Position numbers and translations under genes: made by a program
Shown: positions 1 through 64,000 of the stretch, piece by piece
Position numbering within the stretch: the first letter of the stretch is position 1
Layout: the number at the start of each line of letters is the position of its first letter
Notes under the pieces: model-generated
Told to the model about the DNA's origin: nothing
The model's database searches: none
The model's input: the letters and a program-made list of their open reading frames with translations, nothing else
Source of the DNA: Tetradesmus obliquus
Lineage: Eukaryota; Chlorophyta; Chlorophyceae; Sphaeropleales; Scenedesmaceae
Assembly (NCBI GenBank): GCA_030272155.1
Contig: CP126201.1
Location: forward strand, 1,346,501-1,410,500
Length of the DNA: 64,000 bases
Reading direction: 5' to 3'

Positions 1-249
1 CGCAGGCCACGTGGTGTGGCTGCTGTCGCTTGATGTAACATTGAGTTGCTCCAATACGTGAACTGAAAGTGGGGCAAGTGACTTACTCTAGGGCGGTAGC
101 TTGCCCACCCCTGTAACAGACCTCTCTCTCGAAGCTATGGAGCGCGCGTTTCCTACCCACGTCCTCTCTTCAGAGCCTGATCTCCCTCTTCTTACTGTTA
201 ATCCCATCTTCATCTCCTTCTTCTCCGACAAGGCCACCATATCATGGTA
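1..249. other. No gene recognised
   Basis: I see no coding exon, RNA gene or repeat that I can support here. The recognisable duplicated block begins at about 250. Confidence 0.5.
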
Positions 250-639
250 CAGGCGCCTAGCACAGCTGTGTTAGGATAGGTGTCGCAGACAACATGCTGG
301 CTGCGTCGGCACTTGCGGCGCAGCGTGCTTCGTGCTGAGTTGAGAACACAGCGGACCGCAGCCTGCGGCAAAAGAACAGTGTTGCTGCTGCATCTCTTGG
401 ACGCAGTTCCTGTTTCGGAACGTTGGACACCACTACAAAAGATGCGGTTGCATGCACCACATGATCAACTGACACTGTTGATGGCATCACGCACGTTTGC
501 ACCCCACTGGGCCAGTCACCCCCAGCTTATGTGCATAACTGCAACTGGTAGGGTTTGGTACCCAACTCAATGCTGCCCTGCCAAAGGGCACAAACTGGCC
601 CCGATACAGTACTGGCCAAAGGCAGGTTGTAATGTGAGT

Positions 640-1290
640 GATCACACAGCAGCAGAGCCTGCTGCTTTTCAAGGACGCACAGACGCGCAATTCAACAGCA
701 GCAGCTGCTGCTGCTGCAATAACAGAATCGCCTCACTCCTCCCACTATGGCTCACATGCACCAAACCCCCAGCCCAGCCGCCAGCCCACGCATAGCTGCC
801 GCCAAACTCCAATGCTGACCTGTCATAATACGTCACAAGCTGCCCTCAGCACAAGAATGACCAGAGAAATGACATTGTGTCAATGCTGAAGCAGCAGCAC
901 AGCCTGCTGCGTCTTAAAGACGTACGGACAGCGCAGGCTAACAGCAGCAGCAGCAGCTGCTGCTGCTGCTACGATGAAAGAACAGTTGCTCAGCTGCAGT
1001 TACAGAGCAACAGATGCTGCCACAATAATCCAACAGCCTACTCCTCCCACTGCGGCTCACAAACAACTCCATCCACTTTCCTGTTTCTATTTTTGATGAC
1101 CACATTCCTGTCTTTCACCTCCGCCAGCTCACACGCATAACTGCCACCAAACAAGTGCTGACGTGTCGAATGACGTCACTTCTACTCGCGCCACTCCGCC
1201 GTCGCCTTCATTGTTGCATGTCTTGCTGAAACAGCAGCAGAGCCTGCTGCGTCTAAAAAGACAGCTGTTCCAAGAGCAGCAGTAGCAGCC
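640..1290 (-). repeat. Copies of cyclase terminal exon beyond its stop
   Basis: Two degenerate units (around 640-890 and 890-1230) repeat the arrangement of 1230-1430: a CAGAGCCTGCTGC lead, a CTCCTCCCACT box matching the terminal codons, and an ACGCATAGCTGCC(A/G)CCAAACTCC box matching the part that encodes FGGSYACELAAG. They lie downstream of the stop codon in gene orientation, so they are 3'-edge copies of the terminal exon. The other duplicate shows the same kind of array at 19650-20560. Confidence 0.7.
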
Positions 1291-2047
1291 TCACTCCTCC
1301 CACTGCGGCTCACACACCAGCCCTTCACTCACACTCTCATCATCAACCCCAGCCGCCAGCTCACATGCATAGCTGCCACCAAACTCCAGCGCTGACCTGT
1401 CAAATGACGTCACTTCCACCAGCTTCCCCCATTCGTAACACTCTGCAGTCGCCTTTGCAGAATACGACTCCACCGAATGCGGCACAAAACCGCCGCGCGT
1501 GGGGCCGCCCACTTTGCTGAAGGTTTTAGGGTTTGCCTGGATCTTGAGGACTAGGGTTCTGGGGACCAGGGTTGTGCTGATCTGGCGTGCTGTGACAATG
1601 ATCAGGCCTTGATCTGGCTGTATGTTGGTGCTGAAGAGGGTGGGGCTCTGCGGCTTGAAGTGCCAGGTGCGCTGCCTGGAGCTGTACCTACAGCAGCGGC
1701 AGCAGCAGCAGTGGAGCGACAACCAGTTGCATTGACAGTAACTGCCATGGCTACGCTCGGCTACAGTCGCGATTGCAAACGAACACATTGCCAGTGGTGC
1801 AGGTGTTGCACATCATCATGCTGTCAGTGCACCCATCCATCAGTTCACAATGCACCGCTGTGGGGTCCAGTCTAATCAACACAAACAACGGCCCACCCCA
1901 TCAGCAGCGCGCAGGACAGCGGCACAGGTAGCTTGTCCATGTTGAGGGTGGGCAGCATATTGCAGATTGGTGCTGCATGATTCAATGCAATATCTCTGGC
2001 CTTTCGCCGTATCGCCTTGTTACAGTGTCTATGCCTGGCCTGATATA

Positions 2048-2145
2048 TCCCGTATCACGCCGGGTAACTCCATATCCCCCCGGGTATCTCCATATCACCC
2101 CGGGTATCTCCATATCGTGCCGGGTAACTCCGTATGGTGCCAGGT
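2048..2145. repeat. Short tandem repeat, about 20-21 bp unit
   Basis: Four to five imperfect copies of CGGGTA(A/T)CTCCATATC plus 3-5 variable bases. It lies in the inserted segment of copy A and codes for nothing I recognise. Confidence 0.8.
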
Positions 2146-3075
2146 GATCCCACGACACCCCAGACACCCATGGTGCAAACAAACAATGCAGACCAGACAA
2201 TCATGCCTAGCAAATCAAGCAAAGCAAGCCTATCAAATGGTGATGCCCAGCAAATGGGAATGCACAGCAAACCATGGCCAGCAACACCAAGTGCAGCAAA
2301 TCAAGATGCGCATTGCACCATGCAGCGCTGCACGTCACAGCAAATCATATGCCGTCTAAAAGCCTCACTCATCATCGTCATCCAGCAGCACAGCACGCCT
2401 GCGCCTGAGACCACCACCACCAACCGCTTCAGCAGCCATCATCATGCCGCCTGCGCCTGGCACTACCTGCTGCTGCTGCTGCATCATGCGGCCTCCATTG
2501 AAATGCTGCTGAGGTGGCTGCCAGGCACCGCCAGGAGCCATCATCATGCCGCCTGCGCCGGCCACTTCATGCTGGTGCTGCATCATGCTGCCTCCACTAA
2601 ATTGCTGCTGAGGTGGCTGCCATGCACCGCCAGGAGCCATCTGCATGCCACCACCTCCTGGTAGGTTAAAGGTGAAGTTGTACACGGGTGCAGCGCTGTA
2701 CCCACATGGCGCATACTGAGGGTGCATGCCAGGCAGGTGTGGCTGCACAGCAGGCTGCATCTGCATCTCGGGGTTGTAGTAGGTGGCAGGGTGGGGTGCG
2801 GGCATGCGCTGTGCGGGTGCAGCGGCTCACAGTTGATGTCTGCAAGGTGCCTGTCAGTGTTGACGGTGTTGAAATGCCGAAGGATGCTGTTGACATGCCC
2901 GATGAGTGCGTCCCTCTTGTATTCTTCGCCATTCTGCTGGCGCGCCTGTTTGGCAGCATGGGCAGCAGCAGGAACAGCAGCACGACAGGTCAGCATGTGT
3001 TGTGTTGGTGGCATGCAGGGCATGTGCATGCTGTGAAGCCCATATGGTTGAGATAAGTGTAAGCAACGTGTGTAA

Positions 3076-3215
3076 AGTGTGTTTGGGGCTGTCTGCAGCT
3101 GGATGTGCAGTTTCCTGCAAGCAGCCAGATGACCTGTAGTGCTGGCCAGCACTACAGGTCATCTGGCTGCTTGCAGGAAACTGCACATCCAGCTGCAGAC
3201 AGCCCCAAACACACT
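3076..3215. repeat. Perfect spacerless palindrome, 140 bp
   Basis: The two 70-base arms are exact reverse complements around the centre between 3145 and 3146, with no spacer. The match stops at 3075/3216. The right end overlaps the next palindrome by 4 bases. Confidence 0.95.
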
Positions 3216-3377
3216 AGAGTTCGTGCAGCTGGTGGCTGAATATGTGCTGGTGGTGAGTGAGGGGCTGAATTTAGATGCAGGACTGCCTGGACCATGGTCC
3301 AGGCAGTCCTGCATCTAAATTCAGCCCCTCACTCACCACCAGCACATATTCAGCCACCAGCTGCACGAACTCTAGTG
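3212..3377. repeat. Perfect spacerless palindrome, 166 bp
   Basis: Two 83-base arms mirror exactly around the centre between 3294 and 3295 (CCATGG). The right arm is the natural minus-strand continuation of the P-loop exon; the left arm is its fold-back copy. It overlaps the previous palindrome over CACT (3212-3215). Confidence 0.95.
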
Positions 3378-6059: not shown

Positions 6060-6993
6060 TGTGCTGACGTGTGGCCTGCTGGCTGGAATGATGGTGGTGG
6101 CTGTGGCAGCGAGTAATATTTGGGAGGTGCTGAGCGCAGTTGGAGACCTGGCCAGCACCATACATGTGGGTAGCTGTTACTACCTCTTATTGCATGTTAT
6201 ATTTAGGTTAGACGTCGTCAGTGGCAGCGAGCAACATCTGGGAGGTGCTGAGCGCAGTTGGAGACCTAGCCAGCACCATACAGGTGAGCAGCTGTTACTA
6301 CCTGTTATTTTGTATGTATTTTGGGTTGGAAGCCCTCAGTGGCTGCCAGCAATAATTGGGAGGTGCTGAGCGCAGTTGGAGACCTGGCCAGCACCATACA
6401 GGTGGGTGCTGGTTAATACATGATATGTCTTATGCCACTTTTGTGGCCGTCATTTGTGGCAGCGAGCAACATTTGGGAGGTGCTGAGCGCAGTTGGAGAC
6501 CTGGCCAGCATACAGGCGAGTGGCTGTCACCCACTATCTTCAATCCGACCTGTATGGAGCTGGCCAGGTCTCCAACTGCGCTCACTCCTGTGGGGCGCGG
6601 GGCCGATGGCGACGTTGCTATGGCTTAAATGGTAACATGATGATGATGACTATCTTCAATCTTTTTGTGATGAAACTGCCTGCTTACTTCCTGGGCGATC
6701 AGTTCCCTTGCTCGCCTACACACCACGTAACAGCAGGTCAAGCGTGACACCAAGCCGGCTGCTGCTGCTGCCGCTGCTGCAGCATACTTGTGCACTGGTG
6801 AATCTGTACTGCCGCGTCTCCTGCCGCCGGCCTACACACCACGCACAATCAGGTCAAGCGTGACACCAACTTGGCTGCTGCTGCTGCTGCTGCTGCTGCA
6901 TACTTGTGCACCGTTGTTTCTGTACTGCCACATCTCCTGCCGCAGGCCGTTGCAATGCCTGGGCTGATAGCGATGGTGCTGGCAGTGCGGAGC

Positions 6994-14200: not shown

Positions 14201-17012
14201 CATTGTGGTGCAATAATGGGACAGTAAGGTCCTTGCAGCTGGATTTGCGCAGCGCTGTGACAATATTCTCTGCGGGGGTTAGGAAGAACAAGGCAGAATT
14301 GACAACAGCATACAAAAGTGACAGTGACTGCGGGTTGGAGCGGGCCACCTTGCGGCTGGACTTGCGCAGTGCAGCAATGATGTCATCCTGCACAAAAATG
14401 GAGAATGATGCTGCACGCAGACAAGGATGATAATATATCATGAAAAGCACTTGCAAGCATAGTTCTGGGTAGGGCCTTGCGGCTGGGATTGCGCAGCGCA
14501 GCAATGATGGTCCCCCGCAGGAGAGGGGAGACATGCGACACCCGCAATGGCAATACACGATACACAAGATGGCATTACACGATGCAAAGGACGGCAATAC
14601 ACGACATACAAGATGGCAATACATGGTTCATGGCACTTCCAGCAGCATCTTGCGGCTGCAGCTGCACGGCGCAGTGCAATGTCCAGCTGCAGAAGGGTGT
14701 GGTGAGGATGCCACACCAGGGCAGCAGCAGCACGCACGAGGCACAACTACAGCCACATTTTGCAGCACTTAGCACCCAATCCAAGCCGCAGCAGAAGAGC
14801 AGCTATACTTACATGCTATGGTCAAGTGCCGCACGCCCTACCGACTGAAATCTCTCTGTTAAGCACCAGAACTTATGGCATACATAACCTGCCCCTGGTT
14901 GCTGCTGGTGTACGAGGTTGCGCTGTCATCAGTGCCCAGCGTCTGGTGCTAGGGACATTTGCCAGCGCAACTTCACACTCCGCCAGCTTGAAGTTCACGA
15001 ATGTTTTCATACGCCAGGGCAATACAAACAAACTGAAATTGACACTCACCCGCGCCAGGTTGCCACGGGTGACTCACGGCAGCGCATCTTCATTCAATAT
15101 CAGCTTGAAGTTCACTATAACTAATGCGCACTGTGAACTTCACACTCACCCGCGCCAGGTTGCCGCTGGTGACCCACGGCAGCACATCTTCATACACCGC
15201 CAGCTTGAAGTTCACAATGGTTTTCACGCCCCTGCACTTCACTGCCATGATGTCATGCGCCTTGGCGGCCTGCACCTCGTTGTCAAAGCCACCCAAGTAG
15301 ACTTGCTTCTTGGCGTCCCAGATGTGGGCCTGCAATGAAAAGAGATACGCGGCAACGTTCACTGTGAGTTCACTCTGCAGCAAGGCAGGTTTCACTGTGA
15401 ACTCTGCTGCCTGCACCTCATTGTCAAAGCCACCCAGGTAGACTTGCTTCTTGGAGTCCCGGATGTGTGCCTGCAAGAATAAGAAGGAAGCAGCAAGGTT
15501 GACTGTGAGTTCACTCTGCGGCAGCACAGGTTTCACTGTGAACTCTGCTGCCTGCACCTCGTTGTCAAAGCCACCCAGGTAGACTTGCTTCTTGGCGTCC
15601 CAGATGTGGGCCTGCAATGAAAAGAGATACGCGGCAACGTTCAATGTGAGTTCATTCTGCAGCAAGGCAGGTTTCACTGTGAACTCTGCTGCCTGCACCT
15701 CATTGTCAAAGCCACCCAGTTAGACTTGCTTCTTGGCGTCCCAGATGTGTGCCTGCAAGATTGAGAGAGAAGCAGCAAGGTTTACCGTGAGTTCACTTTG
15801 CGGCAGCACAGGCTTCACTGTAAACTTTGGTGCCTGCACCTCAATAATGCTGCCCAGGTGCACCTGCTTCTTGGCATCCCAGTTGTGCGCCTGCACAAGA
15901 AATATGCAGCAGATCCAGCCCTAAGATAAGCGGTTTTGCTGACAGCAAGTCGCGCCCCTTGGCGGCCTGCACCTGGCTTAGTCTTCTGCTTATGTTCAAG
16001 CCATTCAAGCGCCGCTGAACCTATAAAGCCCAGCAGCAAGTGTACAGATGGCTCACCTCCCAGCGCTTGGTGCGCCTGTGCTGCGTGACGCCCCTGAACC
16101 TGCTGCTGTTGCCGATGGGGCCGCGCCGCGCCCTAGACACTTGCTGCAGGCGCGCAAGCAAATCAAGCACACAGGAGGAACAGAAGTTGTGGTATCGAGC
16201 ATGTGGGCGCACAGCATTGTAGTGACAGATCCTTGCACAGGACACATGCACAAGGTAGCAAAGACAGCAGCCGATTGAACTGATTCGGCGGCGCCGGGCG
16301 CAGCATGTCAAAGCTAGGGAGCGCATCACACGTTCAAGCCTGGTGTTTATCTCTGGCGCAAAGCCATTGACAGCAGCCGCAGAGCGGTAGCAGCAAGAGC
16401 TCCTGCTGCGGGAAACACGTGTGCTGCATGCACAACACAAGATACGACAATCTGGGCAACCCCGCACGTCACTCTGACATGTTATATAACGCTCACCTCT
16501 ATGTCAAAGTTGGTGAGTGCCTCCAGGTCGCTGCGCAGGTCGTTCACTTCACGCACCGCCACAGGCCGCGTCATCACTGCAGTCAGCGCATCATCAAAGC
16601 TGCTGTAGAGCCGCACCCCGGCTGCTGCTGCTGCTACTGGGTTGGATGGAGCGGGGCTGCCGGTAAGGTGGTGAGGGGGAGCAGCAGCAGCAGCAGCAGC
16701 AGGAGGCTGCTGGGGTGCTGCCATTTGCAGGAGGTGCTGCGCTGGGTGCTGCTGCTGCTGTTGCTGCTGTTGGACAGCATGGGCTACTGCTGCCTGGTGC
16801 GGCTGCTGCGCCTGCTGCTGCTGCTGCTGCAGCTGCCTGTACTGCTGCTGCTGGTGTGAGGCTGCGGAGGCAGCTGCTTCGCTGCTTTGGTAGGGCGTGC
16901 GTGCTGCTGCTGCTGCGAAAGGAGAGGGTTCACCGTCTCTTTGAGCAGCAGCTGCAGCAGCTGCCATCAGTTGCCGCTGTGGGGTTTGTGTTGCTGCTGC
17001 TGCAGCTGCTGC

Positions 17013-20964: not shown

Positions 20965-20998
<34 letters not shown>

Positions 20999-42019: not shown

Positions 42020-43010
42020 AGCTGCCAGGGCAGTTGTGCTGCGGTGTTGCTGCGCTGCTGCTCTGCGCTGCTGCTGGCAGGGCTGCCAGGGCTGCTGTGC
42101 TGCCAGCGGTCATTGTGATGTCTAAACAACAACACAAATCGCTGCCTTCCTGCCGCTGGCATTGGGTTGCCCCCTTGTAGTTGCAACAGCCGTTGTGTTG
42201 GTGCTGAGGGCCTCCATGAAACCGCCATGCCATGTTGTTGGGGACGCCTGCTGCAGGTGCGCCTGGCGTATGCTGGGCGCGACCTGCCGCCCAGCAGTGA
42301 CGACAGCGCCTTCGCACCCCAGCCGGGTGTCACCAAGCTGTTCACAATGCGTAGTTTTAAAAAGCCAGCAACTGTGTGTCCTGTGTTGCTGCCTGCTGCA
42401 GGTGTGCCTGGCATATGCTGGGCGGGAGCTGCCGCCCAGCGGTGACGACATCCCCTTCAAAGCACGCACAGCCTCACCTAACAGCCACATGCGTACTATG
42501 TCGGCATTGTCGCAGGTGCACCTGGCATATGCCGGGCGTGAGCTGCCGCCAAGCAGTGACTCGCTCCTGCAAACTACACACAGCCCAACCTGACACATGT
42601 GCGTGTTGTGTTCGCACTGTCGCAGGTGCGCCTGGCGTATGCTGGGCGCGAGCTGCCGCCCAGCGGCGTCGCCAGCGCATTCGCACCCCAGCCTGGCATC
42701 AGCAAGCTGTTCACCATGTGCAGTTGCGCGCAACGTCAGCAGCCGAGTGTGTTGCGGTGCTGCCCTGTTGTAGTGCGCCTGGCATATGCAGGGCGCGAGC
42801 TGCCGCCAAGCAGTATCGCGCTCTTGCAAACTACATACAGCCCAACCTAACAGCCAGATTACTGCTGTGTTGGCATTGTCGCAGGTGCGCCTGGCGCATG
42901 CAGGGCGCGAGCTGCCGCCAAGCAGTGACGCCAGCGCCTTCACACCCCAGCCGGGTGTCACCAAGCTGTTCACCATGCGCAGGGCGGCTGCAGGTGGTGG
43001 GTGGGGTGAC

Positions 43011-46675: not shown

Positions 46676-49600
46676 GGAAGTGAACATGTCAACGTCTGCA
46701 TCATTGTCTGCTGTGTCTGTGCAGTTGCTGGCGCTGGTTCTGCTGCCACGCAGGCTGTGCAGCAGCAGATCTCACACCTGTTCAAACAGGGAGGAGTTCA
46801 TATCTCCCCCCCTCTGAAGTGTTACTCATCTTACTCATGTGCGCCTTGTCGCGCCCTGCAGGGCTTCCTGTGGTGTGATGGCCCTGGCGTGCCCAGCGTG
46901 CTGCCACACCTGCTGGCCGTGTGGTTACTCGTCCACAATGCACAGCCCAAAAATGCATCCCGCTTATGTGTCTCTTCACTGCAGGGCTTCCTGTGGTGTG
47001 ATGGCCCTGGCGCGGTGTTGTTGCTGGCACTTGTTATGCAGCATGCGCAGGCTGTGCAGCAGCACGCCTCACGTCTTTTCATTCCATACTCATCTTGCCA
47101 CTGCCTCCTGCCTGCAGGGTTACTTGTGGTGTGATGGGCCTGGCGTGCCCAGCGTGCTGCCACATTGTCATCATGCACATAACACATATGGTTTATGTAT
47201 GTTCTTCCTCCTGCCTGCAGGGTTACTTGTGGTGTGATGGGCCTGGCGTGCCCAGCGTGCTGCCGTGTTGTTGCTCACACAGTAACATACCTGTGTCTCC
47301 TGCCTGCAGGGCTTCCTGTGGTGTGATGGCCCTGGCGTGCCTAGCGTGCTGACACAGCTGCTGGCGCAGCCCTTTGCAGCCGTGTCAGCAGCAATAGGCA
47401 TGCCGCCAGTGCTGACATACGCGACATACAACCTCATGTGAGCTGCTGGTAGTAGCTGCATGTGCTGATCAAGATGGCTGCTGGTAGTAGCTGCATGTGC
47501 TGATCAAGATGGCTGCTGGTAGTAGCTGCATGTGCTGATCAAGATGGCTGCTGGTAGTAGCTGCATGTGCTGATCAAGATGGCTGCTAGCAGCGTGTGAG
47601 CTGCAGCTTCTAGCAGTGGGCATGCCGCCGGCGCTGACGTACTCCACATACAACCTCATGTGAGCTGCCAGCTGCAGCTGCATGTGCTGTGCATTTGCTG
47701 CATGTGCACGTGTGTCCCACAACAGCAGTTGCGAGGCACGTGCCGGGCCCTGCCAGGGCATACACGACCACACAGCAGCGCTGCAACCTCAGCTGTGCCT
47801 GCTCAGCTTTTATGAGAGAGGATAGTTACATGTGGGTCCTGGCACCATCTTAGATGGTATGAAGTGTTGCAGCAAGCAGCGTGCAGTGTGGATGGCAAGC
47901 TCCAAGGGTTGGCCTGGGCTTCTCACTTGCGACTTGTAACGTGCTTGCAGGAACTGGCGCCGACTGGACCCTGCAGCGCCTCTGGAGCTCGGCAACATCT
48001 GCTGCCAACACGTGCGTGTTTGACCGATGTTTGACCAGTGTTCTGACCGAGATGTGACCGGTGTTTGACCGTTTATCTTATAATCCATCGATACAACTGC
48101 AACACGAGGTAGCTGCTTACTGTGCATGAAGCACACTGCAAGCTTGCATGTAGGGATGTGCGCGGACGTATAAGTTTACCTTCTATACTACAATTTATAA
48201 CGTACAACACGTATAAACGTATTTATACTATACAAACGGTATGATACTCATGCGTTTATACTGAGTATATGATGGATCGTGGACGTATAATGTGTATATG
48301 ACGTAGAAAATGCCCAGTATACACGTATTTATACACGTACCCAGCGTACTCAGCGTATACTATAACTATACGTCAATTATGCGTGCAACCAGGCTCTCAA
48401 AAAGTATACGACGTATAATACCGTATATCATACTTCCGTATATTGTACGTCTATATGTCCGCACATCCCTACTTGCATGCCATGCTGCAGGCAGGATGCG
48501 CTGCAGCAGTGCGTCTGCAGAGGATATGCAGCATGCAGCAGAACTGCTGTGTCTGTGGCAGCAGTGCCTGTGCTGTATTGTGGCTGTTGTATAGACAAGG
48601 AGCACATGATCAAGGCCTGGTATATGGTCAACCCTACTGCTGCTTCATTTCTTGCTTGCAGAACTTCTTTGGCGGCATGGATGAGGAGTGGTTCAGGCTC
48701 ATCCACGTGGCCATCGAGGCGGCAGCAGCGCCGGCCATCGCAGCGCTGCAACCGCTGCAGCAGGCGGCACTGCAGGTAGGAGTGCCTGCTGTGCTGCGGC
48801 CTGTTGACTGCAGAGTGCGTGCCTGCTGATTGCCCACGTGTTTGCGGCTCAGGGATCAGCTAATTATGCTGCACCGACTGCTTGCCATGCAGATGCGCTA
48901 ATCCATTAAATTAGCAGCAACTGTGCCTGGCAAATATCCTGAGATTGGGCGATCAGCTTGGTAAAGGATCATAGCACCAAGCTTGCTGCTGCTGCTCCCC
49001 CCGTTTGTCTGCGCCACAACAACCACAACAACAGCGTGTTGCCGCTGCCACCACTGCTGCTGCTGCTGCGGCCGCTGCTGCCGCCACAACAGCTTGACGC
49101 AGCAGCCATGGAGCTGCACCTTGCCGCCATCACCTCTGCCTTACAAGCCATCATAACTGCTGCTGCCGCCGCTGCCGCTGCTGCTGCTGCTGCTGCTGCC
49201 GATGCCGCTGCTGCTGCTGCTGCCGCTGCCATAACAGCGTGACGCAGCAGCCATGGAGCTGCACTTTGCCGCCATCACATCAGCCCTGCAGGCCATGCAG
49301 GAGCTGCTGGCCCGCATGGGGGAGCGCTGCGACCCTTACGTGTACTACAAACGCGTGCGCGTGCCCATGTCAGGTACTTTGGGCTAAATGGTTGCGGTTG
49401 TCCTGTTTGTGCTCTAATGCTTTTGCATGGGGGAGCGCTGCAACACTTACAAGCGTGTTTGTACTAGGCGGATCCAATGTGTCTTGTGTATGATTTTGAA
49501 TGTTGTGCATTGGGGAGTGATGTGACCCACACGTGCTCTACAAGCGCGTACATGTGCCCATGTCAGTTGAGAGGCGGCTCGGGATGTGCCTGCCCTTTAT

Positions 49601-49721: not shown

Positions 49722-50388
49722 GGTGCTCACAATTCAGGCTGGCGCAACAACGAGGCGCTGCCACAGGGCCTGGTCTACGAGGGGCTGTGGGGCAACCAGC
49801 CGCAGCAACTGTACGGCGAAACCGGCGCGCAGTCGACTGTGGTGCACGCACTGGACGCAGCGCTGGGCATCCAGCATACAAAGGGGTGGTGAGTAAGGGT
49901 TCCAGTTTGTTCTGTGGTTTGACACAGATTTTTACTCAATTGTGGTGCGCGCGTTGGATGCTGCTCCAGGCATCCAGCATAAAAAGAGCTGGTGAGTGCA
50001 GCCAATGACTTTGGTTTGGTGGTTTAGGATGAGGGAATGCTGGTGCAAACACGCACTACACGCTGCACTGGGTTTCCAGCAGCATCGATCACTCGCATCT
50101 CTGTCCTGGCCTGGTTGCTTCGCCCGCAGGATGCAGGTCTGCCTCACTGACATGCAGGCTGTGCCCACATGCCGCCAAGCCGCAGAGCCTTGCTGCAGCA
50201 GCTGCCCGCTGAAGCAGTACTGACACCCAGCCTGCTTCTGCTCTTTGGTGCTGAATTGCATGCAGGATGCAAGCATACTTGTCAGACATGCGTGCCCACA
50301 TGCCGCCCAGCCACCGAGCTTTCCTGCATCAGCTGGAGCAAGGGCCCTCAGTGCGGGACGCTGTGCAGGCGCTGGCACAGACAACAAC

Positions 50389-50419: not shown

Positions 50420-50680
50420 GGCAGCAACAAAAGCAGCAGCAGCAGCAGCAGCCTAGTGGAGGCGTATGATGCAGCAATAGCAGAGCTGGAGCGGTTTAGG
50501 TCACAGCACCGAGCATTTGCGATTGCATATATTGCGCAGTGGTCTAAAAAAGAGGCAAAGGAGGTCGGGACAGGCGGCAGCGACTTTGTGCCTGCACTGT
50601 CAGCATATAAAGATGCGACTGCTGCACACAAGCTCGCCGGCAGCAGCAGCAGCAGCAGGGGCTGTCCGCTGCACAGCTAG
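45590..50680 (+). CDS. Indoleamine 2,3-dioxygenase
   Basis: Heme enzyme that opens the indole ring of tryptophan to N-formylkynurenine, the first step of the kynurenine route. Nine exons join in phase: 45590-45750, 46034-46098, 46373-46623, 47310-47437, 47951-48011, 48662-48775, 49238-49373, 49738-49888 and 50266-50680, giving 493 aa. Family signatures occur in order: FLPAQDPLVRLPPGLQAYED, RAYMVLAFLTHGFLWCDGPG, MPPVLTYATYNLMNWRRLDP, LELGN, NFFGGMDEEWFRLIHVAIEA, AHMPPSHRAFLHQLEQGPSV, then FRSQHRAFAIAYIAQ, where His437 matches the proximal heme ligand, and GTGGSDFVPALSAYKDAT. Poly-Ser/Asn/Gln lies at about 395-415, a usual loop. No clear targeting peptide is seen. The exon models are strong because every phase agrees. 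Confidence 0.95.
46860..47309 (+). repeat. Four 5'-edge copies of dioxygenase exon 4
   Basis: The exon start GGCTTCCTGTGGTGTGATGG (GFLWCDG) after TGCAG occurs at 46860, 46985, 47118 and 47220, before the complete exon at 47310-47437. Two copies read GGTTAC in place of GGCTTC. A 3'-edge copy of the same exon lies downstream at about 47600-47665. Confidence 0.95.
47443..47590 (+). repeat. 35-bp tandem repeat, four copies
   Basis: The unit CTGCTGGTAGTAGCTGCATG plus TGCTGATCAAGATGG repeats almost exactly. It starts right after the donor of dioxygenase exon 4 and ends just before that exon's downstream edge copy. Confidence 0.95.
48151..48471. mobile_element. hAT-type MITE, 321 bp
   Basis: The ends are inverted: TAGGGATGTGCGCGGACGTA at 48151 and, read from 48471 backwards, TAGGGATGTGCGGACATATA. 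The 8-bp sequence CTTGCATG stands directly on both sides (48143-48150 and 48472-48479), the target-site duplication length of hAT transposons. The inside is AT-rich, full of TACGTATA-like words, and has no coding potential. It sits in dioxygenase intron 5, between exons ending at 48011 and starting at 48662. The well-kept ends suggest a recent insertion. Confidence 0.9.
49095..49570 (+). repeat. Edge copies flanking dioxygenase exon 7
   Basis: An acceptor-edge copy (GACGCAGCAGCCATGGAGCT) at about 49096-49160 precedes the exon at 49238-49373. Donor-edge copies (GGGGAGCGCTGC(A/G)AC; CTACAAGCGCGTACATGTGC) follow at about 49428-49470 and 49500-49565. Confidence 0.9.
49930..50220 (+). repeat. One donor-edge and one acceptor-edge copy, intron 8
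   Basis: About 49938-49997 repeats the end of exon 8 (GTGGTGCGCGCGTTGGATGC, donor GGTGAGTGC). About 50129-50215 repeats the start of exon 9 (GATGCA then GCCCACATGCCGCC). The order within the intron is donor-edge first, acceptor-edge last. Confidence 0.85.
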
Positions 50681-51117
50681 GTGCTGGCTTTGTGCCTGCA
50701 CTGTCAGCATACAAGGATGCGACTGCTGCACACAAGCTCGCCGGCAGCAGCAGCAGCAGCAGCAGGGGCTGTCCGCTGCACAGCTAGGTGCTGGCTTTGT
50801 GCCTGCACTGTCAGCATACAAGGATGCGACTGCTGCACACAAGGTCGCCGGCAGCAGCAGCAGCAGCAGCAGGGGCTGTCCGCTGCACAGCTAGGTGCTG
50901 GCTTTGTGCCTGCACTGTCAGCATACAAGGATGCGACTGCTGCACACAAGGTCGCCGGCAGCAGCAGCAGCAGCAGCAGCAGGGGCTGTCCGCTGCACAG
51001 CTAGGTGCTGGCTTTGTGCCTGCACTGTCAGCATACAAGGATGCGACTGCTGCACACAAGCTCGCCGGCAGCAGCAGCAGCAGCAGCAGCAGGGGCTGTC
51101 CGCTGCACAGCTAGGTG
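50681..51117 (+). repeat. Four extra copies of the dioxygenase C-terminal exon end
   Basis: Units of 107, 107, 110 and about 110 bp repeat the coding end (FVPALSAYKDATAAHK, Ser run, GCPLHS) after the stop at 50678-50680. Apart from the CAG run and one (C/G)TCGCC change they look identical. CAG counts from first to fifth unit are 6, 7, 7, 8, 8. Confidence 0.95.
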
Positions 51118-53361: not shown

Positions 53362-56249
53362 TGCAGTGCACTGGCTGACTGCCCCAGCATCAGCAGCATA
53401 CACATCACCGAATGCAGCTCACAGCAGCTGAACACAACATCAACCAGCGATGAAAAGACGCTGGCAATGAAAGAGCTCCTGCATCGCTTGTCAGCAGCAA
53501 ACTGCAGTGCGGCAGCAGCAGCAGCAGCAGCAGCAGCAGCGGGGCGTTCTTACCACTGCTGCAACTGGCTGCCGCAGCTGGTTGCCTCCTTAAGCTCCCA
53601 GCTGCAATCCCTAGAGCTGCAGCTGTTTGCGCCGCTGCCGGCTGTGCAGCAGCCGCTGCTGCTGCTGCTTCGGGAGCTTCGTACACTGTCTTGTGTAGCA
53701 GCAGAGCGCGGGATGTTCCTTGATGTGCAGCACCCGCATGCAGCAGATCTGCTGCCGGATGTGGTTGCTGGGCTCAGTGAGCTTCGGCAGCTGCGCAGCC
53801 TGACAGCTGTGATGGCGCCAAACAGCGAGGAGGCCGTACAGGTAACCTTCTAATAGAGGATAGTAATTTGTGTTGTTGCTGCTCAACCACTGCTGTTTAT
53901 GCTTTTTGTAGCAGCGTTTGCAGATAGTTTGTGGACTATGTGCCATGCAGCAAACCAGTGGTCATGTAGTACCTTCCTGTGCTGAGTGCACGGTGCATCA
54001 TGACGGTCACCGAGGCGGCACAGCGTCGGAATGCAGCAGATATTGTTTGTTGAAGCAGCCCGCAGTGTCATGTATAATGCAGCTGTATTGAGTGTTGGTG
54101 GGCGCATATTCTATTGGCATGGCCCCGCCGATGGGACACAACTAAACATGCTGCACCGTCATTGCTGCCGCCGCCACCGCTGCTGCTGCTGCTGCTGCTG
54201 CTGCTGCAGACTGTGCTCAAGCTGCAGCATACATTCAGCCAGCTGGGCAGCCACCTGACACACCTCAGCTTTGGCACTGGACTTGATAGTAGAATAAAGC
54301 TGCAGCTCTCAGCGCCGCTAAACTGCATGCCGGCGCTTCAAGCCCTAACATGCCAGCCAGGGTTTACATTGGATGCCGAGGACATCCTATACCCTGATCT
54401 GGAGGCAGAAGGGGCAGCAGGAGCAGATCCGAACCTCAATGCAGGCAGCAGCAGCAGCAGTGAAGCAGCAGCAATCGTGCCGTCTTTGACTCACCTCGTG
54501 ATGAATGATGGTTGGGATCACGGCCCTCTGCTGCAGCTGTTGACTCAGCCTAGCAGAGAAGGTGCTGCTGCTGCCGCCAGCCGCACGCTGCTGCAGCAGC
54601 TGGAGTTCAACTGCGGCGGGGAGCTTCCGTTTGAACTTTTGAACCAGCTGGAGTGTCTGCGCAGCTTGAAGTTCACGGTGAGCAGCAGCAAAATAATATA
54701 AGAATATTATATATTATTTAAATATCCACAGCAGCTGCAAACCAATTCCCACCCATGCTGTCCGGGGATGGCGAGTGCCACCGGTGTTTCAAAGCTCTGC
54801 GCCTGACTGCCACCCTGTGTTTCTGCGCTTGTTTTGCATGCTGCTCTCATGCAGGCCCGGGAGAAGCATGATCTGAGCGAGCTCATCAGAGAGCACCTGC
54901 CCCAGCAAAGCAGCTGCAGTGCCTGACGCTGCGGTGCTGTTGCGCCGCTGCTGTGCATTTCGCATGCTCACGCAGGCCCGGGAGAAGCATGACCTCACAG
55001 ACTTCACCAGCAGGGCCCTGCCTTAACAAAGCAGCTGCAGCGCCTGACGGTGGTGTGATGTTGGCCCCGCTGCTGCACCTACTGCCTTCGATGCAAGCGC
55101 GAGAGAAGCACGACATAACAGACCTCACCAGCAGGGCCCCTGCCCTAACGAAACAGCTGCAGGGCCTCACTGTGGTGTGCTGTCGCCTTGCTGCTTCTAG
55201 CGCAGGCCCCAAAAAGCGCGAACTGACTGGCTGGGCAGTTGTAGTCCCCTGCTTTAACACAGCAGCTGCCAGGCCTCACTGTGCTATTGCCTTGCTGCTG
55301 GGCATTCTCCTCTTGGTGCAGGCGAGGGAGAAGCACGACCTCGCAGACCTCACCAGCAGGGCCCCTGCGCTGAGCAAGCAGCTGCAAGGCCTCACAGTGG
55401 TGTGCAGTGCCCCCTCGGAGCAGCATGACGAGTGGGCCAGCCCCTACCGACCTGTGCCGCTGCTGACTGCCCTGACAGCCCTCACTAGTGAGTTCAATTG
55501 ATGATAAGATCAGCAGTAACAATGCTGACAGTTATGATGGCGAACATGTGAGCAGCATGATGAGTGTGCCAGCTCGTAACGCCCTGTGCCGCTGCATTTG
55601 AAGCATATGTACTTCACATGCGATGACCTGTATCTTGTTGCTGCGTGATCATGCACCCTGTGCAGGCCTCAAGGTCATCGGCACCCCTCACATGCTGCTG
55701 TGCGCCAGCCAAGACCTTCCTCTGCTGACTTGACTGCCTCGACCCTGCACGTGTCTTGTTTTGGTGCTTGTTTATAATCCTTTCTGAAAGCAGGCCTCAA
55801 GGTCATCGGCACCCCTCACATACTGCTGAGCACCACCCAGGACCTGCGGCTGCTTTCCTCGGCGCTGCCGCGGCTGCAGCAGCTGAATTTTTCTGGGGGC
55901 TTCACAACCCTGCGGCCTGCTGCACTCCCAATGCAGGCGGTTAGCCGCAGCAGCAGCAGCAGCAGCAGCAGCAGTTTTGTTGTGCTTGAGACGCCGCCGC
56001 AGCTGACAGCCCTCACGCTGCTGTGCAAAAACCCGGACCACAGAGAGCAGCACAGCTTGGTCTTCATGCATGGAGCACTACCAGCAAGCTTGAGGAGCCT
56101 ATGTGTGCGCGGAACAGCATGCAGCATACAGAGAACGTACAACAGCGGGGGTGTCAGCGGCAATGCAGCAGGCTGGCAGGTTGTTGGAGATAGGAAGCAG
56201 CAGGGTTCTGCTGCTGCTGATGATGCTGCTGCTGGCGGTGGTCAGCAGG

Positions 56250-57147: not shown

Positions 57148-58309
57148 TCGGCAGCCCTGCAGCTTGCAAGTTGGCATTGCGCAGGCTTGTACCCCGCTAT
57201 GTGATGGCACGCGCCGGTGTTGCGTTGAACAGCTGCAGGTGGTGTTGCATCAACATCAGCTCCAATGCTGCTGCCAATCGGCAAGAAGCCTTGCGCTGTG
57301 CTGTATTCTGCTGCACACTCGCCAACTTCCAACTCGACCTAGGAATTGACCAGTTTTTAACTGAGTACAATGAACTCACTAATGTTTCGCAAAGTACAGC
57401 CACAGGCGCATCCACAAAGGAGCCAAACACAGCTGATCTTGTCACATCTTGTCATGCTACGCCATGCAGGCCTGTGCTCATCTTGTTACATTTGTCACGC
57501 CACACCATGCAGGCCTCCCCCTTGTTCAGGACGATCTGCACAGCGCTGCTGCAGATGCTACTGCCGGCTATGGCCTGGCCCTGCTGCTGCCTGCCCTCTG
57601 CAGCAGGCTTCAGCAGCTGCGGGAGCTCTGTCTGGTCTGCTATGGAGAGCGCTGCATGCCGGCAGGTGAGGCTGCAGGCTGCAGACATTACAATTACAAT
57701 TCAATCTTGCACACAGAACAGCACGCAGCAGTGCTCGCAAGGCTGCTGGTGTTGTGGGGTGCTGTTGTCTTGCTCTGCGGGAGCTCTGTCTGGCCTGCTA
57801 TGGAGAGCGCTGCATGCCGGCAGGTGAGGCTGCAGGCTGCACTGCCAGTACAGAACAGAATGCGGAGTGATGGCTGGTGTTGTCGGGCGCTGTTGTAATG
57901 CGTTGGAAGTGGGCGCCAAGCCAACAGGTCACAGCCAACAAGCCAACAGGTCATTGCCGAGGTTCAAGTCACTGCCTCATGCCTTGGCTCATATGCATGA
58001 TGAATCACCCAATATGCCAATGGTTGCAGGCTGCGCCGTGAGCAGCAGTAAGGGCACGCTGTGCGGTGCGGTCAAGGCTGCTGTCCCCCTGGCACTGCGT
58101 GTGTGGGATGCAGTTGTATATGCACGGATTTAGACACCCACCGAGTCTTGAGGACACGCTGGTTGCGTGACTGCGCACCGTTGAATGCAGTTGTGTTGTG
58201 CCGCAGGCGGTTGGACAACGGAAAAGACAGGGCGCTGCTGAGGGCAGAGCATCACCCTGCTTGTCATGCAAGATCGGAGCATGGATGGTTTGAAGATGCC
58301 GCGTGCTGC

Positions 58310-58347
<38 letters not shown>

Positions 58348-58526
58348 GTGCCCAGCAAGCGCTCAGCCACATCAGCAGCCTGACCAGGCTGCAAACCCTA
58401 CAGCTCAATTCTGTGCTGCTGCCGCTGCTGCTGCTGCTGCTGCCTCTGCTGCCGCTGCTGCAGGTGGCCAGCGCGCTCTCAGCCACATCAGCTGCGCTCA
58501 GGCTGCTGATTCGCGCCTCAACTGTG

Positions 58527-58592
<66 letters not shown>

Positions 58593-58889
58593 AGGTGCCC
58601 AGCAAGCGCTCAGCCACATCAGCAGCCTGACCAGGCTGCAAACCCTACAGCTCAATACTGTGCTGCTGCCGCTGCTGCTGCTGCTGCCTCTGCTGCCGCT
58701 GCTGCAGGTGGCCAGCGCGCTCTCAGCCACATCAGCTGCGCTCAGGCTGCTGATTCGCGCCTCAACTGTGTGCTGCTGCTGCTGCCGCTGCTGCTGCTGC
58801 TGCTGCCTCTGCTGCCGCTGCTGCAGGTGGCCAGCGCGCTCTCAGCCACATCAGCTGCGCTCAGGCTGCTGAATCGCGCCTCAACTGTG

Positions 58890-58926
<37 letters not shown>

Positions 58927-59327
58927 GCTGCTGCAGGTGCCCAGCAAGCGCTCAGCCACATCAGCAGCCTGACCAGGCTGGCAACCCTAAAGCTCAACTT
59001 TGTACTGCTGCCGCTGCTGCTGCTGCCTCTGCTTCTGCTGCTGCAGGTGCTCAGCGCGCCCTCAGCCACATCAGCCGCCTGACCAGGCTGCAAACCCTAA
59101 AGCTCAACTACACCTGCGGCATGGCTCCGGCACCCACCCACATGGATGAAGCAATGTTTCAGCCATTTGCTGCGGGCCTACAGTGCTGCAGCAGGCTGCG
59201 GCAGATTGTGCTTGGGCCTGAGCTGCCCCTGAGTGACGAGCAGCAGGCGGAGCTGCAGCTGCGGCTGCCCAACTGCCTGGTGCATGATCATCATCATGTT
59301 ACCCATCAAGCCATGCCTGGTGCATGA
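53362..59327 (+). CDS. Leucine-rich-repeat protein
   Basis: Exon pieces share the LRR texture: 53362-53840 (PSISSIHITECSSQQLN, LSSQLQSLELQLFAPL), 54211-54678 (LGSHLTHLSFGTGLDSRIKL, LLQQLEFNC), 55320-55489 (AREKHDLADLTSRAPALSKQ), 55793 to about 56412 (LPRLQQLNFSGG, PPQLTALTLLC), about 56882-57075 (TALLDLSLQLRPDS, LTRLALSVPG), about 57508-57665 (LQQLRELCLVCYGERC) and 59047-59327 (ALSHISRLTRLQTLKLNYTC; stop at 59325-59327). Poly-Ala and poly-Ser runs lie in loops. It probably acts as a protein-interaction scaffold; no kinase, NB-ARC or F-box domain is visible. The start and some joins are uncertain; earlier exons may lie in 52317-53361. Confidence 0.65.
54857..55319 (+). repeat. Four 5'-edge copies of an LRR-gene exon
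   Basis: Copies of GCCCGGGAGAAGCATGA(C/T)CT with the following segment up to GCAGCTGCAG(G/T)GCCT occur at about 54857, 54976, 55098 and 55201, before the complete exon from 55320. The copy at 55201 is the most changed. A similar single copy (GGCCTCAAGGTCATCGGCAC) at 55666 precedes the exon at 55793. Confidence 0.9.
56413..56520 (+). repeat. 3'-edge copy of an LRR-gene exon
   Basis: AACGTGGAAGTTGAGGCGCT and the next bases (VEVEALKDAADML) repeat the exon end at about 56365-56412 (VEVESLEDAAGML). They lie downstream of it, after a GTAGGG donor-like site. A second donor-edge pair lies at 57600-57666 and 57775-57826. Confidence 0.85.
58313..59046 (+). repeat. Six 5'-edge copies before the last LRR exon
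   Basis: (CTG)n-CAG acceptors followed by an LRR-like segment occur at 58348, 58464, 58594, 58708, 58827 and 58937, then 59047, which continues to the stop. Two unit types occur: GTGCCCAGCAAGCGCTCAGC (58348, 58594, 58937) and GTGGCCAGCGCGCTCTCAGC (58464, 58708, 58827). Spacing is 110-130 bp. Each copy is led by a long CTG run. Confidence 0.9.
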
Positions 59328-60455: not shown

Positions 60456-63315
60456 ATGCCTCAGCATCGGGCCTTCAAGGCCACATTTAGCAATGAACAA
60501 ACAATCGAACGTAAATGGACCGGGCCAAGAGTTGCTGCACTCTGCGCGTGCGGAGTATTCTTGACTGTTGGCCTGGTGGGAGCGTTCTTACACTTTTCAG
60601 CACCGCAGCAGCAGCCACGCAGCAGCGCTTGGCTGAACCAGCAAAGGCCTTCGCTCGAGCTGTCACGGGCGTGTCAGCAGCTGCCAGGCAGGCACGGGCA
60701 GCTGTGCCGGGGCTATGTGGAAGCAGCAGGGGAGGAGCGCTGGAGTGCTGCTGCTGCATGGCGCCGCGGCAGCCCTGACTCATGTGAGTGTCCTGCAAGC
60801 AGTCCGTCATGTGTTATTTTTTAATTCAAATGCTGTCATTTGTGCGGCTTTGCTGTCCAACAGGCAGGCAGGGCAGCAGCAGCAGCTCACACCAGCAGCT
60901 CTGGCTGGTCCAGCAGCGAGTGACGCTGCATCATATGCTGCTGTGGATGCCATAATCACTGCCTCGGCGCTTGTGACCGCATACTTTGTATCACTGTAAC
61001 CATTTGAATCCATGTGCACGTGCGTGCACCTTGCGGCATTGGATACAACCCATCCACCGACCCATTGCTGCCTGGACGCCAGCAGCTGATACCAGCAGCA
61101 TCCTCCCACCACCGCGTTTACAACTTCTCTGCTGATCGTACTGACGCGTACACTGTGTTTGTCCATGCTGCTGCAGTCGTGTGCGCCGGCATATCTGTGG
61201 CATGCCTGGACGCCCACACTGTACATCAGCTCTGTTACGCAAATGCTGCTGATCTTAATAATGTCTCTTATATCACTTATACCATGTATGTTGCCTGTTT
61301 CCCACGCCTTTGCAGTCGTGTGCGCCGGCATATCTGTGGCATGCCTGGATGCTGACATTGAAGCTGAGCCAGCAGCACCTGCCAGCGCATGCGTGCCGCT
61401 GCAGGAGGGGTCCCAATGCAGCTTCAGCAGCTTTTGTCGGCAGGGATTCTGCGGAGGTGCGTTTGATACAGCATTTGATATCATTCATGATTTGAAAGGC
61501 AAAGGCAATCTCAGCACGAGGCTATCGGCAGTTGTTCTTGCAGCAGCAGGAGTGCTTGCGGCAGCAGCCACGGTGCAGCTGGAGCAGCTGCCAACAACTG
61601 TTTGAAAGCTGTTACGGCAGCAGCAGTAGCAGCAGCATCAATCGTGGGCGGTTCTCGTTCTACAGCTATTGCTAGGCTTGTGAAAGGACCGGCGTGCGCC
61701 TGTCAGGGCTTGCCTGTGCGGCTGAGTGTCGTCACGCGTGGCAGCAGGTCCACATGCGCCCTACATCGATATGGCGCAGCAGCATACAAAGCGTGGCGCA
61801 TTCTTCAGCCATCACTTGCATTGCGTAAAACAAACATCAGTTTGTTGCCCGCTAGAGCCTGTCTTTTTGCTTATCAACAGGATTGAGGCAGGTTTCAGTC
61901 ATGTGTTTGCTTTGCTGTTGCTGTTGCTGCATGCCCGCCAAAAGACTCCAAGGAGCAGCAGCAACCAGAAGCAGTAACCTCTGAACCCGCAGCAGCAGGC
62001 GCAGCTGATACTACCGACAGCCGCAACAGCACCAGCGGCGACAGCATTGTCACAATCGTGCCATCTGCACTGGAAGAGACAAGCACCACAGCAGCAGCAG
62101 CCGCAGCCGGCGCTGCGGCAGCTGCACCTCAGCAGCAGCAGCAGGATGGGGCCAACATAACATATGAAGATGCAACCACAATGATGAACCAGCAGGTCAA
62201 TATAGTCAACGAAACAGAAGCAGAAGAGGAGGTCCCCAGCCGTCGCCTGATGGCTTCCGCAGCAGCCGTCGCAAAGCGCAACGCGCCAATGGAAAAGTGG
62301 CCGACAGCAATCTACTCGGTCGATATCAGTCAGGCCGGCAGACGCTTGCCGGATACGTTGCTTGCCACATCCCACGAGTACAACCGCATTTATGATTATG
62401 GGGAGGAATACATTCACGCTTGGGCGAATGTTTTTGGCAAGCTGTCATCATCTCCGATCATTCGTGTGGGCGGCGCCAGCCAGGACAAGATGAAGAAGGT
62501 GCGGAGGCTGTTATATTGCCGCTTTTGTTATGTCATATATTATTACTATCAGTCAGCATGAGGCGTATTTTAGTGAACAGTGTCATCCTTTGTATGACAT
62601 GTGGCGGCGGCGCCAGCCAGGGCAAGATGAAAAGGGTGCAGCTGTTACTTGACTTGTTACAAACATGTTATGCCAACCAGATGACGAACAACTGCCCTGA
62701 TGCGTGCGTCCACATTTTGTCATTGTTTCATGCGGGTTCGCTGTTGCGCGCTGCGGGTTGCTGGACGTGCGCAGCTGGCACGACTGCCGCCTGCAAGGCC
62801 GCTTTGTTGTACACGGGCATTGGCTGCTGTTTGCTCTCTTGGCAAAATCCTGCACTGCTCGTTATCCGTATATACTTTATCATGTATGGAATGGTATCAT
62901 CATCAAGTATTAATTACTGTATGTTCTGCATCTGTCTGCGTGCTGTAGGTGCCAGGTCCGAGGGTGTGGAAGGCTCTCAAGGCTCTGCAGGAGAGAGTCA
63001 ACGCCAGGTGCGCTGAAGAACCAAGCTGTAGCTTGAGCTGCTGTGCACGTCCCATGCAAAAGGACGGCTTTACACAGTGAATGCACAGTTACGCTCCTTC
63101 AGGCATTCCTGGACCAGGACACGGGTGTCCCCCGGGTCACCGGGTGTCACTGGGTGTCACCGGGCGTCACTGGGTGTCACCGGGCGTCACCGGGTGTCAC
63201 TGGGTGTCACCGGGGTACCCTGCCATGTGGTGGTGCTACGCGTGAGCTCAGCGGTGCCGCGTGTTGCGCCGTGTGGCAGAAGAACGCAGTAGAGCTCAGC
63301 AGGGAGATCATGGCG

Positions 63316-63346
<31 letters not shown>

Positions 63347-63469
63347 AGGTACATCTTTGGGCTGCCGCTGTGGCAGAAGAACGCAGTGGAGCTGTCCAAG
63401 GAAATCATGGCACTGGCTGAGAAGCATCTAGCTCCTGGTGCTGTCATTGGTTATGAGCTGGGCAATGAG
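60456..63469 (+). CDS. Heparanase-like (GH79) glycosidase, partial
   Basis: Five exons join in phase: 60456-60783, 61316-61456, 61945-62498, 62949-63007 and 63349-63469 (401 codons so far); the rest lies beyond the part I can read or the window end. The ATG at 60456 is followed by a short basic tail and one membrane segment (VAALCACGVFLTVGLVGAFL), so this is a signal-anchored type II protein. Exon 2 gives a compact Cys-rich module (FVCAGISVACLDAD, CSFSSFCRQGFCGG). After an Ala/Gln/Thr linker with N-x-S/T sites comes the glycosidase barrel: RRLPDTLLATSHEYNRIYDY, SSSPIIRVGGASQDKMKK, RYIFGLPLWQKNAVELSKEI and GAVIGYELGNE, where the last Glu is the expected acid/base residue of GH79. It probably acts on cell-wall or matrix glycans in the secretory route or at the surface. 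Confidence 0.85.
62600..62642 (+). repeat. 3'-edge copy of GH79-like exon 3
   Basis: GGCGGCGCCAGCCAGGGCAAGATGAAAAGGGTGC repeats the exon end at 62470-62500 (GGCGGCGCCAGCCAGGACAA) with its donor, downstream of it. Likewise, an acceptor-edge copy of exon 2 (GTCGTGTGCGCCGGCATATC) lies at about 61177, upstream of 61316. Confidence 0.9.
63137..63216. repeat. 10-bp tandem repeat
   Basis: About eight copies of GGG(T/C)GTCAC(C/T) in tandem, within intron 4 of the GH79-like gene. Confidence 0.9.
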
Positions 63470-63521
63470 GTAAGGCAGTGTGTTGTGTGTGTCTGCTGTC
63501 ATGATTGTGTAACTGCTATCT

Positions 63522-63568
<47 letters not shown>

Positions 63569-63950
63569 TGCAGTTCCCCTGGCTGAGAAGCATCTGGCCC
63601 CCAATGCTGTCATTGGTAATGACCTGGGTAACGAGGTGAGGCGGTGTGCTGTGTGCGATGTGAGCGGATTGTATATTGTAGCTGCTTGCTGCAGCAGCAG
63701 CGGCCGCTGTAGGATCATTGGCTATGAGCTCGGTAGTGAGGTGGGGCAGTGTGCTGTGTGTGTCTGCTGTCGCAATTAAGTGACTGCCATCTGCTGTTTC
63801 AGCACCACCAGCAGCAGCAGCAGCGGTTGCTTTGATGCCATTTGCTAGGAGTTCGTGCAACGAGGTGAGTCAACGCTTGCTTTTGCCGTGAACTGCAAAC
63901 GCAGGCAATCTGATGCAGCGCAACCAGCGGTAGCAGCAACAGTACGTACT

Positions 63951-63987
<37 letters not shown>

Positions 63988-64000
63988 CAGTGCCACAACA
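63268..64000 (+). repeat. Edge copies around GH79-like exon 5, to window end
   Basis: An acceptor-edge copy (TGTGGCAGAAGAACGCAGTA) at about 63273-63320 precedes exon 5. Donor-edge copies follow at about 63575-63645 (GAGAAGCATCTGGCCCCCAA, TGACCTGGGTAACGAGGTGA), about 63705-63750 and, more weakly, about 63835-63870. The next true exon is not recognisable before the window ends. Confidence 0.85.

Follow-up and report, generated by a model that had tools for sequence, protein, structure and literature searches.

Introduction

The potato RdRp gene is reportedly a case in which an intron was gained by tandem genomic duplication. Several described systems come close to the structures that we report here. 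Intron gain by tandem duplication, as well as by break repair with flanking repeats, is described in PMC3443670, and small tandem duplications that result from break repair with CST/Pol alpha fill-in in PMC8355091. In Chlamydomonas and Volvox, tandem repeats with motifs of 1-50 bp are enriched toward intron ends (PMC3887541). Polyubiquitin genes contain dual-specific splice-site arrays whose units are whole in-frame ubiquitin monomers (PMC10809524), and introners are recurrent intron-related insertions that occur in green algae among others (PMC9860276). Copies of exon edges of the kind described below were not encountered in the titles and abstract openings that literature searches among open-licence papers returned. 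Here we analyse such copies in a stretch of 64,000 nucleotides from the green alga Tetradesmus obliquus (contig CP126201.1; C11:1346501-1410500), hereafter the window, and in control regions of the same genome (104.66 Mb, 17 contigs). A first-pass annotation of the window had noted head-to-tail copies of exon borders in several genes, placed according to one ordering rule.

Results

The exon-edge copies are real in the assembled sequence, and they are present beyond the window too. In the window, 14 of 41 exon edges on the acceptor side and 7 of 39 on the donor side had a copy in the adjoining intron (score of at least 22). In five 50-kb control blocks from contigs 1, 2, 3, 4 and 8, selected independently of the author of the first-pass annotation, the corresponding numbers at score 22 were 9/203 and 8/198. 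The window is a hot spot, and the control edge rates are about 4%. It had been picked for its unusual look, several of the tests were picked after the data had been inspected, and the window counts are inflated because the gene finder still labels some array copies as exons there. The total DNA analysed amounts to 314 kb plus a few small loci. Exons were taken from a hidden Markov model (HMM) gene finder trained without homology (371 exons, median intron 274 bp), whose models show the donors CAG|GTGAG or GTGCG and the acceptor TGCAG|G, and all border counts rest on these unsupervised models. Exons shorter than 60 bp and edges with more than 20 masked bases were excluded from the edge counts.

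The window is also repeat-rich, since it holds 17 arrays with a period of at least 40 and a score of at least 100, versus 13 in the 250 kb of controls. Tandem Repeats Finder (TRF) reported 11 window arrays with periods of 99-141, and in self-comparison the direct repeats peak clearly at an offset of 90-140 bp, with weaker harmonics. The head-to-tail copies at exon borders of several genes were thus recovered, but some arrays lie off the borders, such as the one at 2430-2649, which is located inside a modelled exon.

For window and controls together, the upstream intron contained a copy of the 5' edge (70 bp) in 23 of 244 cases and the downstream intron in 1 of 148; for 3' edges the numbers were 15 of 237 downstream and 3 of 162 upstream. 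Wrong-side edges were tested on exons of at least 140 bp only, and the Fisher P values (0.00015 for 5' edges and 0.047 for 3' edges) apply to the pooled data only. Exon middles had no copy (0/61, window and controls) and neither did reversed-intron controls (0/481 over all blocks), whereas 20 of 130 intron middles in window and controls did. The copies hence lie nearly always on the side where splicing can tolerate them, as the ordering rule has it, but the rule does not point to a special mechanism. It follows from geometry, because in a duplicated segment that spans an acceptor only the last copy adjoins the rest of the exon, and the donor is the mirror case. The rule thus tells us no more than that a duplication took place and that the protein survived it. 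Both edges of one exon were copied (score of at least 19) in 6 of 201 exons, which is above expectation (Fisher P 0.005); the controls alone gave 3/169 (P 0.015) and the window alone 3/32 (P 1.0).

The copies share a characteristic anatomy. Over 23 loci with one-unit offsets the distance between copy and edge is 123.7 +/- 15.9 bp, composed of an exon part of 57 +/- 21 bp and an intron part, here called the spacer, of 66 +/- 20 bp. The two parts are negatively correlated (r = -0.72), and none of 20,000 permutations gave a sum as tight as the observed one. Among 24 loci with offsets up to 200 bp only one (193 bp) falls outside 95-148 bp. The similarity starts at the border itself (gap 0) in most loci. 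An offset that is narrow as the sum of exon part and intron part fits a duplication spanning the border. Copies more than 5 bp from the border were left out of the offset and codon-by-spacer analyses, and spacers shorter than 15 bp out of the offset analysis and the spacer comparisons. Score floors were 24 for the simulated spacer test and 19 for the spacer comparisons and codon-position counts.

The copies had been described as including the adjoining intron end, and this part of the description does not hold. When the spacer was compared with the intron beside the copy, the similarity in most control-block loci was no higher than between unrelated introns (null 95%: 0.20 for acceptors, 0.10 for donors). 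We simulated spacers that diverge 1.5 times as fast as the exon parts and acquire indels in addition; 12 of 37 loci lie below the 1% point of this simulation. Among the 17 informative loci, with exon parts at least 0.85 alike, 11 lie below it (both numbers are our own tally from the simulation table), and in these the exon halves are 85-100% alike and the intron halves unrelated, as opposed to the full-unit homology that some arrays show and that head-to-tail birth at full length would produce. The copy in the PDH E1-alpha gene is identical to its exon at 63 of 65 positions with a spacer score of -0.07, that in the cpn60 gene at 64 of 67 with -0.04, and the Omp85 gene has three identical instances of a 35-bp edge, with spacers that are not alike. 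A search of 32 spacers against the local 5 kb gave a clear same-strand match (score above 25) for 12, all in multi-copy loci. Two spacers searched genome-wide were each found in their own place only, and six block-to-block comparisons (plus strand) yielded one match of at least 25 and none of at least 30. The narrow spacing with its trade-off between exon and intron part and the exon-only likeness are unexpected features of these copies. Two more, described below, are the nearly normal splice signals and the fact that young exon-only copies and one CCT exon differ chiefly at third codon positions although the decay is neutral overall.

Differences between copy and exon are distributed over the codon positions as 30:31:52 in the controls and 81:73:124 in the window. 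Overall, this is the pattern of a neutral copy beside a synonymously evolving exon. Selection on the copies as protein was considered and is rejected overall by the codon positions, and a strong third-position bias, the first impression from hand-picked loci, did not hold up when all loci were counted. The 42 aligned copies contain 7 stops and 58 indels. Their splice sites score nearly as high as the real ones (medians for copy and real sites 6.7 and 7.4 for acceptors, 5.7 and 6.7 for donors; intronic background -0.6 and -1.4), and the context from -20 to -7 of 20 acceptor-side copies has a mean of 1.06 compared to 0.95 for real acceptors and -1.33 for background. It had been proposed that the copies may supply decoy splice sites. 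Strong potential sites are indeed present, but GT/AG is intact in 26 of 34 copies (8 lost), and decay at the rate of the exon part would leave 26.4; the splice-signal and dinucleotide counts exclude copies lying more than 2 bp off the border. Since the dinucleotides are lost at the decay rate, nothing shows that decoys are maintained for use, and as judged from sequence the copies appear to bear no sign of maintained function.

The frequency of border duplications had been regarded as far above random, and this is borne out in part. Among arrays with a period of 88-150, those that contain a predicted border number 17 of 26 in the controls, with 8.2 expected under random placement (reached in 0 of 2,000 shuffles), but only 12 of 32 in the window, with 9.2 expected (P 0.17); together this makes 29 of 58 versus 17.2 expected. 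The remaining arrays are mixed exon/intron (13), intergenic according to the models (11), exonic (3) and purely intronic (2), and the possible starts for a 124-bp unit are about equally many inside introns (59,414) and across borders (52,584). The excess at borders is therefore limited to the class of about 124 bp and does not extend to all repeats. A count of border-spanning against intron-internal duplications accordingly gives a divided answer: the former prevail among arrays of about 124 bp, but 60-bp intron windows in the controls have a local copy at least as often (149 of 1,839, of which 60 have an exon-reaching partner) as exon edges (24 of 428).

Several arrays with more than one copy read e X e X e E, where e is the partial and E the complete exon edge and X the intervening intron sequence. 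X is alike within the array and the outermost intron side is unrelated, as at 44383 in the window, at 26083 in control block B3 and at 33613 in block B1. The exon pieces of these outermost pairs are 90-100% alike (48/48 for the outer e at 44383). In other arrays, e.g. at 33925 in block B4, the outermost intron side is not set apart in this way, and those at 15329 in the window and 22952 in block B1 are dimeric (A-B-A-B). Head-to-tail units, expansion in copy number and mosaic copies, the marks of a minisatellite, are found in multi-copy loci only. Block B3 contains a duplicated gene (0-8.6 kb and 21.7-29.8 kb; C3:1.00-1.03 Mb), of which one copy only carries the three-unit array at 26083. The array copies there share a codon TAC with the paralog, while the real exon has a changed codon.

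Two groups of copies in the window lie on the minus strand. In the AP2 gene, whose domain was found by Pfam, TRF and edge comparison place copies of the 5' edge and acceptor upstream of the complete exon 15150-15329 (15261..15912), at -141, -282, -423 and -561 with spacers alternating A-B-A-B; the 3' edge and donor of the same exon are copied 100 bp downstream (15034..15149). In a cyclase-like gene, exon 22578-22722 has its 5' edge copied five times in steps of 127-141 bp (22659..23426) and its 3' edge once, 116 bp downstream, with a non-homologous spacer (22458..22577).

All other loci are on the plus strand. Four head-to-tail units of 117-118 bp, each with an exon-like 3' edge and donor, occupy 6102..6530, where the first unit was judged by eye to be the real edge and a 34-amino-acid piece had no Pfam match. 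A ubiquitin-like gene, with a ubiquitin domain found by Pfam, has exon-edge copies in steps of 110-147 bp (42236..42982). At 44009..44431 it also has three copies, 115-116 bp apart, of a 5' edge and its CAG acceptor, followed by the complete exon at 44384; the outermost of these copies equals the next over 48 bp, yet its outer intron side is unrelated. In the IDO gene (domain by Pfam) one exon has its 5' edge copied 145 bp upstream of the acceptor at 49237 (49085..49281), and a 3' edge is copied 193 bp downstream of the donor at 49373 (49314..49566). Two further copies have non-homologous spacers, one of a 3' edge 103 bp downstream of the donor at 49888 (49833..49997) and one of a 5' edge 136 bp upstream of the acceptor at 50265 (50126..50335). 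TRF and reading of the sequence further show five 107-bp units, 97% alike, that begin in the 3' part of the last modelled exon of this gene (50584..51117), a young array with a CAG run in every unit. An LRR-like gene has the 5' edge of the exon at 55322 copied in steps of 109-121 bp (54809..55408), and an LRR-like region contains about five units, 110-119 bp long, which all combine exon-like with CTG-rich sequence (58304..59109). Finally, an exon 3' edge is copied 136 bp downstream of the donor at 62498 (62423..62639), in what had been called a GH79 gene (domain unconfirmed), and an exon 5' edge about 96 bp upstream of the acceptor at 63348, the similarity starting 15 bp into the exon (63272..63411). 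Throughout the window there are very many CAG/CTG triplet runs, within modelled exons (poly-Q, A, S) and elsewhere.

Pfam was run on nine chosen products and later on further models and pieces. It matched E1_dh (2-298 of 300), Cpn60 (1-488 of 490) and IDO (152-410 of 412) as well as AP2, Omp85, DEAD and ubiquitin, with two of the nine products remaining without match, and a ubiquitin-conjugating domain was found in one further model. When the copies are left out, the modelled exons still cover E1_dh (PDH E1-alpha) and Cpn60 almost end to end. A weaker test is provided by the AP2, cyclase and Omp85 products, from which the copies had already been removed by manual splicing when Pfam was run. 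Of the gene names given in the first-pass annotation, AP2, dioxygenase (IDO) and ubiquitin are confirmed, but GH79 and cyclase had no Pfam match among the models and pieces submitted, and neither had 57814-63636, submitted as a single merged model. An intron of the cpn60 gene (L028:4759-4895) might contain a small dispersed element: parts of it, 51-120 bp long, have counterparts at 74-86% identity in seven places on other contigs, and a piece of 48 bp recurs nearby on the opposite strand.

Discussion

From the sequences compared, the copies are probably, if with considerable reserve, best read as relics of border-straddling duplications of about 95-145 bp that were tolerated by splicing, expanded into arrays and often joined diverged versions of a gene. 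Short duplications, about 95-145 bp from start to start, would arise in genic DNA by break repair or unequal exchange. Those that straddle a border would survive, because the exon keeps its complete edge and the partial copy is spliced out. Recombination among the repeated edges would then expand or contract arrays of the form e(Xe)n, a form that is observed in several of them. The copies would be non-functional and decay neutrally overall, for which codon positions and the loss of splice dinucleotides speak. For a large class of loci we suggest that the repeat joined two gene versions that had already diverged, with exons alike and introns not, so that only the exon half would be recognisable and each copy would come with its own well-formed splice context. 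If two versions were joined with an overlap of about 124 bp, the outcome might be exon-delimited similarity, good and independent splice contexts, silent differences and hardly any visible intron-internal cases. The earlier suggestion of border duplication tolerated by splicing agrees with anatomy and sidedness, but in the form of simple tandem duplication followed by neutral decay it fails for the 11 informative loci with unrelated intron halves.

Several observations are consistent with the joining of diverged versions. Ten loci that combine an unrelated spacer (score up to 0.2) with an identity of at least 0.90 have differences distributed as 4:6:22 over the codon positions (P 0.008 against 0.46). 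A CCT exon identified in a Pfam search (L040:237-604; C16:4.1728-4.1732 Mb) has its 69-bp edge in three versions that differ at third positions only (0:0:6, 0:0:10 and 0:0:10). The window itself contains a paralog pair, two similar gene copies on the minus strand (1294-3669 and 20569-24001). Their last exons are identical at 377 of 394 positions, with 17 differences (9 silent, 7 not, 1 unclassified), while the flanking noncoding sequence is identical at 357 of 473 (75%) plus 97 gap columns. Two gene versions can therefore share exons while their introns drift apart fast.

A number of results weigh against this reading. When all 16 loci with an identity of at least 0.90 are pooled, 29 of 50 differences are at the third position (P 0.06; this sum and the 4:6:22 above are our own, from the locus lists), and third-position bias is not associated with unrelated spacers (Fisher P 0.63 and 0.40). 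The CCT locus was found via protein similarity, which favours silent differences, and its outer intron side resembles the real one (0.70) though the exon parts differ more, an unexplained mosaic. When second gene versions were looked for in the assembly, an 801-bp stretch of the PDH gene matched nowhere else, and a piece of the cpn60 gene matched two other loci at 76-83%, in each case over a single exon. A second version of the PDH gene would consequently have to be an allele or a lost one. Spacers are homologous in some arrays (0.97 for the inner pair at 44383, 0.96 and 0.99 for the inner pairs at 22722, 0.89 for B3 26083). To these must be added the unremarkable border count of the window arrays and the frequent copies of intron windows described above, and the length of 95-145 bp has no explanation in the proposed scheme.

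Ordinary tandem duplication within one chromosome, in which intron halves diverge much faster or gene conversion keeps the exon halves alike, is the alternative that fares best, and we consider it possible, if rather unlikely. It would account for the homologous spacers just mentioned, for the exchange of copies within arrays (dimers, mosaics) and for the inner decoy pairs, whose exon parts tend to be more alike than their spacers. However, in loci whose exon copies are 90-97% alike the spacers mostly resemble each other no more than unrelated introns do, falling below a simulation that already lets spacers diverge faster, and a spacer score of at least 0.3 is reached in only 2 of 20 loci with a single detected copy. 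Somewhat more doubtful is a recurrent process in this alga by which exon edges, precisely up to the splice border, would be copied to a site about 124 bp off, every time beside another intron end that already has working splice signals. This could be repair between strongly diverged haplotypes, of which only the exons are homologous, or copying guided by spliced RNA.

An artefact of assembly seems improbable to us. If two divergent haplotypes had been merged, with short overlaps of about read or k-mer length left at exon borders, each haplotype switch would show similarity in the exon alone, an offset of 95-145 bp, silent differences and a splice context that is intact on either side. But some copies have stops, frame-breaking indels or dead splice sites, there are arrays of 3-5 decayed copies, and the codon pattern is mostly neutral. 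We give very little credence to the idea that the copies might be functional splicing decoys (poison or decoy sites) under selection: the splice sites of the copies come close to real ones in strength and only 6 of 30 offsets up to 150 are divisible by 3, but the splice dinucleotides disappear at the pace of the exon parts, codon constraint is lacking overall and the frame bias is small. Least probable of all are introns made by tandem genomic duplication of AGGT-containing exon segments, or dual-specific splice-site arrays. In their favour, donor and acceptor regions are similar in 15 of 303 predicted introns (score of at least 20), the unit at 44009-44431 starts AG|GTGCG, and AG|GT occurs at 9 of 20 copied acceptors versus 88 of 313 acceptors overall. 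Against them, a single intron of the 303 shows high identity from border to border (68/80 at 42515, inside an array; next best 42/80), and AG|GT is lacking at 11 of the 20 copied acceptors and present in 7 of the 20 copies made from them.

If about 4% of exon edges carry relics, as in the controls, the genome may hold many fossils of short duplications. Such relics would be a natural assay for the tolerance of border duplications by splicing, for the lengthening of introns and for the rate at which decoy splice sites die, and the narrow length together with the exon-delimited similarity would constrain the underlying process of repair or recombination.

With the tandem-duplication intron gain of PMC3443670, as summarised there, the copies share a local duplication in genic DNA that is tolerated via splicing. 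They differ in that existing introns are lengthened and one edge is copied, a repeat from border to border being seen in one intron only. The fill-in duplications of PMC8355091 are similarly short and offer a plausible mechanism of birth, but by that account they are born as full copies, whereas many intron halves are unrelated here and the length window is narrow. The polyubiquitin arrays (PMC10809524) are likewise tandem arrays bounded by splice sites, and one array here is located in a ubiquitin-like gene, but the units described here consist of partial exon edges, the offset is not divisible by 3 in 24 of 30 cases, and AG|GT does not mark the unit borders. Unlike the introners of PMC9860276, no dispersed family was seen in the genome-wide search of two spacers or, at a score of at least 30, in the block-to-block comparisons. 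The repeats outlined for Chlamydomonas and Volvox (PMC3887541) come from green algae as well, and a spacing of about 124 bp places the exon-edge copies beyond their range of 1-50 bp.

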